Below, in pieces: positions 16,179 through 17,952 of a stretch of DNA of 58,809 nucleotides. This DNA is from Isoptericola halalbus (lineage in GTDB: Bacteria; Actinomycetota; Actinomycetes; Actinomycetales; Cellulomonadaceae). Position 1 is the stretch's first letter, and each line of letters starts with the position of its first letter. Where the stretch lies: assembly GCA_009663185.1 (NCBI GenBank), contig VJZX01000019.1:1-58809 (forward strand), in the 5' to 3' direction. The position numbers and the translations under genes are program-made. The notes beneath the pieces were generated by a model. The model did no database searches. It worked only from the letters and a program-made list of their open reading frames with translations, and was not told the origin of the DNA.

Positions 16179-16202
16179 GTGGCCAGCCTAGGTGACGCTG
16201 AT

Positions 16203-16238
16203 AACGTAGTCACCGCGACTGACTACCGAAACGTAGTC
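16203..16238. promoter_or_regulatory. GTAGTC half-site array upstream of hipB
   Basis: Three copies of the hexamer GTAGTC occur as direct and inverted repeats: forward at 16206-16211, inverted (GACTAC) at 16221-16226, and forward at 16233-16238. Two lie in the longer direct repeat AACGTAGTC. HipB-type proteins bind spaced inverted half-sites before their own gene, so this is a plausible autoregulatory operator. It could also affect the divergent kinase gene. Confidence 0.5.
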
Positions 16239-16257
16239 GAGGTACGAGGTGACCGCG

Positions 16258-16497
16258 ATGCACTACACCGGGAAGGTCACGAGCCCTGAGTCCCTGGGCC
16301 GGATCCTCCAGCAAGCGCGCCTGCTCAACGGGTGGAGCCAGCGTGAGCTCGCAGCGCGCATCGGCACGACGCAGCGTTACATCTGGGAGATCGAGTCGGG
16401 CAAGCCCTCGATCTTCGTGGACCGGCTCTTCGCGGTGCTGCGCGAGACCGGCACGGAGCTATCGGCGACGATCCGGGCCGAGGACTCCGATGGGTGA
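16258..16497 (+). CDS. hipB: HipB-like XRE-family antitoxin/regulator
   Basis: A 79-residue Cro/CI-type DNA-binding protein (LGRILQQARLLNGWSQRELA, then AARIGTTQRYIWEIESGKP). The family pairs with HipA kinase toxins, binding DNA as a dimer and inhibiting HipA. ATG 16258 is preferred over GTG 16249 because GAGG lies eight bases upstream. Its stop overlaps the hipA start codon (ATG at 16490), the usual hipBA arrangement. Because hipA is truncated, hipB is now an orphan that may survive as a regulator. Confidence 0.8.
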   Translation: MHYTGKVTSPESLGRILQQARLLNGWSQRELAARIGTTQRYIWEIESGKPSIFVDRLFAVLRETGTELSATIRAEDSDG

Positions 16498-16609
16498 CCT
16501 CGTCGTCGAGCTCTACGACATCCGGGTGGGGAACCTTGCGGGACGCGGTCAGGACCTCGACTTCGTCGTGGTGTGGAAGAGCTGGCTGTGTGTAGCATCC
16601 GGGGCATGA
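16490..16609 (+). pseudogene. hipA: hipA remnant, N-terminal ~27 codons only
   Basis: MGDLVVELYDIRVGNLAG is the normal beginning of HipA serine/threonine kinase toxins, read from an ATG overlapping hipB. Similarity fades after about residue 26 (GQDLDFV), and the frame closes at TGA 16607-16609 after 39 residues. A HipA is normally about 400-440 residues. The break point near 16567-16590 is where the trp-leader promoter begins, so hipA was probably cut by arrival of the trpL-trpD segment or by a deletion. No 3' part of hipA is seen downstream. Confidence 0.7.
16593..16605 (+). promoter_or_regulatory. -10 box of the leaderless trp leader transcript
   Basis: TAGCAT (16593-16598) is followed by exactly seven bases and then the ATG of the leader peptide. 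Transcription would therefore start at or next to the A of the start codon, giving a leaderless mRNA. A good -35 box is not obvious. Confidence 0.5.
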
Positions 16610-16644
16610 ACCCGCATTCGACCAGCTGGCGGCCCGCCCCGTAG
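16606..16644 (+). CDS. trpL: Trp-type leader peptide (trpL)
   Basis: A 12-codon frame, MNPHSTSWRPAP, ending in TAG at 16642-16644. It resembles actinobacterial trp leader peptides, for example the HST-then-Trp pattern of Streptomyces leaders, but has only one Trp codon (TGG, 16627-16629) instead of a run. It has no Shine-Dalgarno and is probably translated from the 5' end of a leaderless mRNA. Its position relative to the hairpins is what attenuation requires: the TGG lies just before the pause stem, and the stop codon lies at the start of segment 2. Confidence 0.7.
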   Translation: MNPHSTSWRPAP

Positions 16645-16703
16645 GCGGCCCCTGCCTGATCGAGACTTCACCTGGCCGCCTCGTCGAGGCGGCCTTCTCT
16701 CTT
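16631..16703 (+). promoter_or_regulatory. Transcription attenuator: pause, antiterminator and terminator stems
   Basis: Four segments are visible. Segment 1 is 16631-16638 (GGCC-C-GCC, one bulged C). Segment 2 is AGGCGGCC at 16643-16650. Segment 3 is GGCCGCCT at 16674-16681. Segment 4 is AGGCGGCC at 16687-16694, followed by TTCTCTCTT. Segments 2 and 4 are identical, so 3 can pair with either. A ribosome stalled on TGG covers segment 1 and lets 2:3 form (read-through). A ribosome reaching TAG masks segment 2, so the 3:4 terminator forms. This is the classic tryptophan attenuation logic, here upstream of trpD. Confidence 0.8.
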
Positions 16704-16746
16704 CCTGCGCCGGCTCGTCGGGTCTGGCTCCTACCCAAGGACAGCC

Positions 16747-17796
16747 GTGACTCATACCAGCCTTTGGAACACGATCCTGCAGCTCCTCATCGAGGGTCAA
16801 GACCTCACGACGCGTGACGCTGTCTGGGCGATGAGCCAGATCGTGAGCGGGGAGGCGACGGACGCTCAGACCGCTGCCTTTCTGACGGGACTTCGGATCA
16901 AGGGTGAGTCCGCCGTCGAAGTCGCCGGCTTCGTCGCAGCCCTGCGATCCCACGGCGTCGACGTGGATATCCCCGGGGCGATCGTCGACATTGCGGGAAC
17001 TGGCGGTGATGGCACCGGTGCGGTGAACATCTCGACGATGGCTGCCGTCGTCGCCGCTGCAGCGGGGGTCACCGTCGTGAAGCACGGTGGACGCTCGGCG
17101 TCCTCGTCCACCGCAGGATCCGCCGACCTCCTCGAGCATCTGGGTGTGACTCTGGATCTCACCCCGGAGCAGGTGGTGCGAGTCGCAGGAGACGCCGGCA
17201 TGGCCTATGTGTTCGCACCCAGGTTCAACCCCGGGCTGCGCCACGCGGCGCCTGTGCGACGGCAGCTGGGGATCGCAACCGTGTTCAACGCTGTCGCGCC
17301 CCTTCTCAACCCCGCGGATCCACAGCATCAAGTGGTCGGAGTCGCAGACCGACGTCTGGCTCCGGTGCTCGCGGATGCCATGGCAGCGATGGGGCGCACC
17401 GGTCTGGTCGTCCGGGGCCGCGACGGCCTGGACAATCTCACCACCGTCAGCGTGTCGGACGTTCTGGTTGTGCGCGACGGGAGCGTCACCGGGACAACGC
17501 TGGATCCGCGTGACCTCGGCATCCCGCTCGCCGACCCAAGGCTGTTGCGAGGCGGGGCACCCGAGCACAACGCCACCATCTTCCACTCCGTGCTCGATGG
17601 CGTGCACGGACCGGTCCGTGATGCTGTACTGCTCAACGCCGCCGCGGTCTTGGTGGCGGCGCATCCGTTGATGGGATCTCTCGTCGAGGAGATCGACCTC
17701 GCCCGAACCCGGTGCGCCGAAGCGATTGACAGCGGCGCGGCCAAGGCGAAGCTCAACCGCTTCGTCAGGGCCAGCCGCAGCGCTGTCGAGTCCTAG
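16747..17796 (+). CDS. trpD: TrpD-family (anthranilate phosphoribosyltransferase-like) protein, divergent active site
   Basis: A 349-residue protein of normal TrpD length and fold: the PRPP loop GTGGDG (84-89), NISTMAAVVAAAAG, FAPRFNPGLRHAAPVRRQLG and LNAAAVLVA. TrpD joins anthranilate to PRPP in tryptophan synthesis. Two near-invariant positions differ: the anthranilate-contacting Asn of KHGN is Gly115 (KHGGR), and the second metal acid of DGLDE is Asn230 (DGLDN). It may therefore use another aromatic acceptor or be impaired. It starts at GTG 16747. The gene stands alone, without trpE, trpC or trpG, behind its own attenuator. Its codon third positions look less GC-rich than its neighbours', consistent with transfer. 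Confidence 0.8.
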   Translation: MTHTSLWNTILQLLIEGQDLTTRDAVWAMSQIVSGEATDAQTAAFLTGLRIKGESAVEVAGFVAALRSHGVDVDIPGAIVDIAGTGGDGTGAVNISTMAAVVAAAAGVTVVKHGGRSASSSTAGSADLLEHLGVTLDLTPEQVVRVAGDAGMAYVFAPRFNPGLRHAAPVRRQLGIATVFNAVAPLLNPADPQHQVVGVADRRLAPVLADAMAAMGRTGLVVRGRDGLDNLTTVSVSDVLVVRDGSVTGTTLDPRDLGIPLADPRLLRGGAPEHNATIFHSVLDGVHGPVRDAVLLNAAAVLVAAHPLMGSLVEEIDLARTRCAEAIDSGAAKAKLNRFVRASRSAVES

Positions 17797-17803
17797 ACAG
17801 AAT

Positions 17804-17820
17804 GGGATCGAACAGATCCC
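17804..17820 (+). terminator. Short hairpin after trpD
   Basis: GGGATC (17804-17809) and GATCCC (17815-17820) with a five-base loop, directly after the trpD stop. The stem is only six base pairs and lacks a U-tract, so it is a weak candidate. Confidence 0.35.
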
Positions 17821-17952
17821 CGACCTGCGGTGACGAGGGTTTGCCCAGGGTCGACGTCGCCCCGAGGCGACACCGACCATCGCCCGCTGACGCACCCAGA
17901 AGACGCCCCCGGGCCGATGTCGCACCGGGGTCCGGACCGGCATCGTCGAGGC

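Follow-up and report, generated by a model that had tools for sequence, protein, structure and literature searches.

Introduction

The closest described systems to the locus reported here are the anthranilate phosphoribosyltransferase TrpD and the trp attenuators of actinobacteria. In the TrpD of M. tuberculosis Glu252 ligates both Mg ions and Asp251 the second, and Asn138 touches the anthranilate carboxylate, where yeast has Gly (PMC9835598, available portion of the text). The same portion reports that substitutions at the KHGN loop and at M. tuberculosis Arg193 impair catalysis. The accessible part of PMC5537072 describes the DE motif as invariant among TrpDs of known structure. The yeast mutant trp4-S121A, without the Ser that coordinates active-site Mg, still grows without tryptophan (PMC12750150, available text), so conservation of a metal ligand does not make it indispensable in vivo. 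Attenuators before actinobacterial trp operons (Streptomyces, Corynebacterium) and before trpS2 are published, as the available part of PMC1262725 states.

The locus lies in a window of 58,809 nucleotides from Isoptericola halalbus, the window being the whole stretch of DNA that was analysed. A sequence-only reading had described it as a trpD-family gene with an altered active site behind a complete attenuator.

Organization of the Locus

The features of the unit and of the block that holds it are as follows.

16195..17896, strand not assigned: block missing from congener G016, with HipB-like gene, HipA-like fragment, attenuator and trpD
16258..16497, plus strand: HTH_3 protein, HipB-like (HTH match from Pfam)
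16490..16609, plus strand: HipA-like N-terminal fragment, cut off, its stop overlapping the leader ATG
16593..16598, plus strand: -10 box TAGCAT, 7 nt 5' of the leader start
16606..16644, plus strand: leader peptide MNPHSTSWRPAP and stop, 12 codons, single Trp codon
16631..16638, plus strand: segment 1 (GGCCCGCC), beginning just 3' of the Trp codon
16643..16650, plus strand: segment 2 (AGGCGGCC), overlapping the leader stop codon
16674..16680, plus strand: segment 3 (GGCCGCC)
16687..16694, plus strand: segment 4 (AGGCGGCC), the same octamer as segment 2
16674-16694, plus strand: 3:4 terminator hairpin of nine pairs, then TTCTCTCTTCC
16737..16741, plus strand: ribosome-binding site AAGGA of the trpD-like gene, by eye
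16747..17796, plus strand: TrpD-family ORF, 349 aa, GTG start, intact

The sole Trp codon of the leader is the TGG at 16627-16629. The codon after it is CGG in the window and TGG in aligned relatives. The earlier description of a 12-codon leader with one Trp codon and four exclusive segments, the second and fourth identical, was confirmed by the coordinates, by folding and by a covariance model. The description of a lone, intact trpD-family gene reading KHGG and DGLDN also held, the protein matching the TIGR01245 trpD model over its whole length with 328 bits (cut-off 199).

We take the names HipB-like (16258..16497) and HipA-like (16490..16609) as an assumption; the fragment 16490..16609 had no match in the Pfam scan. 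The HipA-like gene ends after about 30 codons, directly 5' of the attenuator (window 16258-16609). Similar Hip-like loci occur at other sites in congeners G012 and G007 and continue there into a longer HipA-like frame.

Eight other window neighbours, part of the genes in 8.6-21.5 kb and counted apart from the HipB/HipA-like pieces, were scanned with Pfam. Seven belonged to non-trp families and one had no match, in line with the earlier remark that no other trp gene is adjacent.

The Attenuator

The features of a classical trp attenuator were found, namely a short leader with a Trp codon at segment 1 and mutually exclusive 1:2, 2:3 and 3:4 helices. The terminator hairpin at 16674-16694 with its tail folded at -19.4 kcal/mol (z -4.6), and none of 200 shuffles was as low. 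It was the sole terminator-like site in 16400-16800, where 0.1 was expected. Its tail TTCTCTCTTC is U-rich by the scan rule of 5 T in 8, and is pyrimidine-rich with no pure T run. The region 16606-16705 folded better than shuffles (z -3.0). The whole 161-nt stretch 16590-16750 showed no such advantage (z -1.0), and 30 of 200 shuffles reached a value as low.

With the window left out, 23 relatives gave a covariance model that matched 16609-16706 with 66.3 bits (E 4e-15). Across 22 loci around TrpDs without a noted attenuator the best match of the same model had an E of 0.024, and it found no such attenuator at the genome's own canonical trpD locus. No Rfam family matched at its gathering threshold.

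Base pairing was examined in alignment A4, which has 36 leaders (34 distinct) after removal of L148, L188, L189, L190 and duplicate loci; 23 of these leaders form alignment A6. Pairing was kept in 99.7% of the A4 cells of the 3:4 terminator, with two pairs changed on both sides, in 99.6% of those of the 1:2 hairpin (34 distinct leaders) and in 99.6% of those of the 2:3 antiterminator. The clearest two-sided change was antiterminator column 40 with 81 (AU in 24, GC in 10). The 1:2 and 2:3 helices each had 1 two-sided changed pair, not above shuffles, and 7 and 10 changed cells, respectively, above shuffles. These counts overstate the number of independent events because the leader sequences are related. 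Segment 2 contributes the same letters to 1:2 and to 2:3, and the conservation of both helices therefore supports mutually exclusive pairing. This anatomy and covariation, from which we infer transcriptional attenuation itself at the window locus, support together with the comparison of relatives the tryptophan-responsive control proposed earlier.

A second possible hairpin was seen by eye between the terminator and the trpD start in L033 (5922-5970), L034 (5932-5979) and other leaders. It would mask the ribosome-binding site and is weaker, by eye, in the window.

A further model, R1, had matches in 91 of 394 genomes of the class, training genomes included. More than 100 matches were listed and 30 loci were examined. 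Four of the 30 precede TrpD (ORFs of at least 150 aa near the match) and all four are training members. Ten others, identified by eye from their translations, are presumably seven anthranilate-synthase fusions and three trpS genes. The remaining 16 of the 30 gave no match to TrpD.

The -10 Box and the Probable Start of the Leader mRNA

Each of the 37 leaders has a TANNNT box that ends 6 or 7 nt 5' of a leader start codon. Shuffled upstream sequence had TANNNT at 4-9 nt in about 3%, an approximate contrast, as the real set was given several start codons per locus and the control one. At this spacing the mRNA probably begins at the leader start codon and would thus be leaderless. A strict sigma-70 scan predicted no promoter at the window attenuator.

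The TrpD-Like Protein

The window protein carries VVKHGG (KHGG being residues 112-115) and GRDGLDN, in which Asn230 replaces the Mg-binding Glu. It has one extra residue in the beta2-alpha6 (PRPP) loop. Against the YbiB (TrpD2) model it scored 67.8 bits, below the cut-off of 185. The PRPP ligands are kept in the window and in the clade described below (GTGGD, NxST, the Lys of KHG, the loop Ser pair and the Gly of GSAD). The anthranilate Arg (Arg193 of the M. tuberculosis enzyme) is kept, in VRR, in the window and in intact clade rows. The ligand roles behind this reading of the sites are those given in the available portions of PMC9835598 and PMC5537072. A structure prediction run with three sequences reached a pLDDT of 68.6 and a pTM of 0.70, and the loops were too poor to place Asn230.

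The sequence-only reading had taken KHGN and DGLDE to be near-invariant, and the two motifs fared differently. In each of G324, G171 and G670 (99, 97 and 100% complete) the single TrpD that was detected has KHGG, and yeast has Gly at the same position (PMC9835598, available text), so that Gly is compatible with function. The Asn of KHGN is a poor marker of function, and KHGG was rejected as the key marker. The change need not be neutral, since substitutions in the loop impair catalysis. Matches to the KHGG pattern in G386, in G165 C56 and in G732 (L149) were rejected as not TrpD, and a second match in G745 lies outside its TrpD matches. The conservation of DGLDE was borne out, the Glu being kept in 25 of 25 canonical rows and in 11 of 11 KHGG rows outside the clade. 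Of 26 canonical rows tried, 25 entered the tree; L099 was left out and reads KHGN/DGLDE.

In place of the DE motif the window has DN and 36 relatives read (4 non-Kribbella, 32 Kribbella) have DK. As the motif is missing, we classify the window protein as a homologue of TrpD and do not regard it as a proven anthranilate phosphoribosyltransferase. Judged by the alignments, the real oddity is the loss of the predicted Mg-binding Glu (Lys in the clade, Asn in the window), not KHGG. Since the Glu that ligates both Mg ions belongs to a motif called invariant, the activity of the window and clade proteins may be lost or changed.

A change of acceptor had been proposed earlier. KHGG is no evidence for it; what stands is the loss of the Glu. 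The corresponding alternative, a substrate-shifted TrpD that, when tryptophan is short, would turn an aromatic amine into a different N-riboside, is unlikely. It would account for coordinated changes at the PRPP/anthranilate site (KHGG, the loop residue, Glu to Lys), for the replacement, in many members, of the Thr before VN in the GGD loop by Ala and for the frequent change of FHP to FNP. It fits poorly with the anthranilate Arg kept in intact clade rows, with control by Trp, which points to tryptophan metabolism, and with KHGG being ordinary in sole TrpDs and in yeast (PMC9835598, available text). The neighbouring genes also speak against it. At six clade loci (L033, L034, L077, L078, L147, L150) 24 roughly called ORFs included no trp-pathway family. 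Twenty-two of them matched Pfam families, which differ between loci apart from a sigma factor and a glycosyl-hydrolase-16 gene common to L033 and L034. The suggestion of a specialised pathway was not sustained by these loci.

A specialised-metabolite cluster was considered and rejected as the context. The TrpDs of Streptomyces plasmids (L058, L059, L061, L062) read KHGN/DGLDE, L058 and L061 fall outside the clade in the tree, and the clade loci share no pathway neighbours. The cluster is seen in the three annotated plasmid records (L058, L059, L062), which carry tryptophan halogenase, anthranilate synthase and trpD; L061 is unannotated. Just 5' of trpD in these plasmids (L058 7526-7948, L059 7621-7947, L062 7669-7947, also L061) lies a gene for a small protein ending in DDPWHP repeats, which by eye resembles a repeated Trp-containing precursor peptide. 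Plasmid and phage carriage were likewise rejected. The 97 plasmid records matched were all below 60% identity, and the five TrpDs read among the 20 of these records that were listed were all KHGN. Viral contigs held no relative in a scan resting on two peptide patterns.

Relatives and Phylogeny

Searching genome contigs yielded three close relatives, all of them Kribbella. Among 38 Kribbella genomes the KHGG pattern was present in 32, a second TrpD beside the first in 33 and a single TrpD in 5. All 33 second copies read KHGG, and 32 of the 33 have the extra residue between KHGGRxAS and GSAD. DGLDK was found in all 32 that could be read, one copy being broken before the motif. A Trp-Trp leader with hairpin precedes all 33, L188 having been judged by eye. 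L188 (G774) has DGLDK and the attenuator without the loop insertion, with extra residues before VTVVKHGG instead, so the Lys may be older than the insertion. In G026 the second TrpD (L035/L182) is broken into two pieces behind an intact leader and hairpin. Four further loci (L077, L078, L147, L150; family groups f27 and f44) are clade members. All four have Lys and three have the leader, the hairpin of L147 showing one mismatch in the alignment. L078 is the member without an attenuator and sits between IS66-type and DDE_Tnp_4-type transposase genes.

In a maximum-likelihood tree of 70 proteins the check by alignment and tree, proposed with the original observation, gave a separate TrpD clade with support of 100/97. 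The window lies beside Kribbella (97/87) on a long branch (0.64). When the trait columns were removed the clade was kept at an SH-aLRT of 85, and the place of the window beside Kribbella was unstarred, having been starred in the full tree. The tree includes 8 of the 17 congener TrpDs, and motifs were read in all 17. L188 is absent from it, and L163 and L165 (from the genomes of L034 and L033) and the broken L035/L182 were excluded from tree and dN/dS. L148, the sister of the clade, combines an intact DGLDE with a Trp-Trp-Trp leader and hairpin. As it carries this leader with the Glu in place, the comparison suggests that Trp control predates the Glu change.

The Kribbella second copies had a median dN/dS of 0.135 (range 0.06-0.37; 221 pairs with dS of 0.1-1), which indicates that the clade is under purifying selection. 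The earlier idea of a decayed enzyme does not suit a clade in which 33 of 38 Kribbella genomes keep the copy. Strong conservation despite a lost metal ligand would fit a partner of little or no catalytic activity that joins canonical TrpD by way of the dimer helices common to both and modulates it in starvation, as would the presence of another TrpD in every clade genome searched (the window's own, 33 Kribbella, G272, G219, G685, G725). Such a role is improbable, given that PRPP ligands and the anthranilate Arg are kept.

Decay can also be considered for the window copy by itself, after transfer, with the clade functional. The copy has Asn for the clade Lys, CGG for TGG in the leader and the long branch, and of the 79 columns that are invariant among the other clade rows it deviates at 10. 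Its frame, -10 box, attenuator and ribosome-binding site are nevertheless intact. Only 2 of 63 family-wide conserved columns are changed, within the range of 0-3 in the eleven other clade rows tested, and dN to L033 is about 0.36 against a dS of about 1.4, the latter near saturation. We regard decay of the window copy as a slim chance.

Second Copy and Origin of the Block

The search for a second canonical trpD, also proposed earlier, succeeded. The genome has another TrpD with KHGN and DGLDE, so the window gene is not its only trpD. Each of the 17 other congeners has one TrpD above the cut-off, all with KHGN and DGLDE. In a sample of 297 genomes of the order the KHGG pattern was found in one, that of the window.

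Congener G016 has both flanks, which end at 16194 and resume at 17897. In G016 138 other bases separate them, so that about 1.7 kb is extra in the window genome. The first part of the block, with the HipB-like and cut HipA-like genes, resembles loci elsewhere in three congeners (76-79%), and this similarity stops at 16568, just 5' of the attenuator. GC3 of the window trpD is 0.78, that of the genome's canonical trpD 0.96 and that of three neighbours 0.91-0.94. Four Kribbella clade copies have a GC3 of 0.73-0.80 and L078, L147 and L150 one of 0.89-0.90. The closest relative of the window protein has 57% identity. The extra block, the rarity of KHGG in the order, the GC3 and the distant best relative together point to horizontal acquisition of the window trpD unit, putatively from an unsampled donor.

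A long near-perfect inverted repeat was seen by eye in L183, the uninterrupted site of a congener that matches 16194/17897.

Proposed Function

The most likely reading, to which we give about an even chance, is a starvation-induced isozyme of anthranilate phosphoribosyltransferase with a rebuilt metal site. With charged tRNA-Trp present the ribosome would reach the leader stop and cover segment 2, the 3:4 hairpin would form and transcription would end. With charged tRNA-Trp low the ribosome would stall at the Trp codon on segment 1, 2:3 would form and trpD would be read. The one-gene transcript would then provide capacity beyond that of the canonical TrpD for making phosphoribosyl-anthranilate from PRPP, with anthranilate as the presumed acceptor. 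The PRPP/metal site would have been rebuilt by Glu to Lys (Asn in the window) and one loop residue, and Lys could, speculatively, supply the charge otherwise provided by a metal ion. The window's CGG for the second Trp codon and its Asn for Lys may each be a single-base change. A leader with one Trp codon should give a less sensitive switch.

Several observations stand against the isozyme. The window copy has neither the Lys of the clade nor a second Trp codon, and it departs at the clade-invariant columns noted above. In addition, a second copy is missing from 5 of 38 Kribbella genomes and broken in another, and no attenuator precedes L078. A broader proposal is a Lys-for-Glu lineage of starvation TrpDs that would carry out transfer with fewer or no metals, or to another acceptor, and spread between actinobacterial families as a promoter-attenuator-gene cassette. 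This is a tentative suggestion. The conserved Lys branch, apparently wired to tryptophan starvation, would be a natural test of the role of the metal in the TrpD class, and the window unit looks like a transferable one-gene, self-regulated tryptophan unit.

Comparison With Known Systems

The literature searched held nothing on an attenuated lone trpD, and a 2015 paper on actinobacterial tryptophan attenuators by Korolev and others may list cases. It also held nothing on Glu-less TrpDs. The attenuator is of a known type, and the branch of attenuated, Glu-less TrpDs is apparently undescribed.

With TrpD (TIGR01245; class IV phosphoribosyltransferase) the window protein shares whole-length homology, the PRPP motifs and the anthranilate Arg. 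It differs in the Asn in place of the DE Glu (Lys in its kin), in the extra PRPP-loop residue and in being a second copy. TrpD2/YbiB is a related fold family, and the window protein falls below its cut-off.

A further comparison is with the duplicated KHGG/DGLDE TrpDs of other Actinomycetes (L082, L084, L085, L088, L089; L086, L087), which have KHGG and two TrpDs per genome. L086 and L087 have an attenuator of the same kind as the window. Unlike the window protein, these TrpDs keep the metal Glu, have no extra loop residue and lie outside the clade.

The features common to the window and the actinobacterial trp attenuators in the available text of PMC1262725 are Trp codons in a short leader, a GGCC/GCC complementary triple, and a terminator with antiterminator. 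In contrast to the attenuators in that text, the window unit would drive a lone trpD and its leader mRNA is probably leaderless. The window has one Trp codon, whereas the other attenuated clade members read have two adjacent ones.
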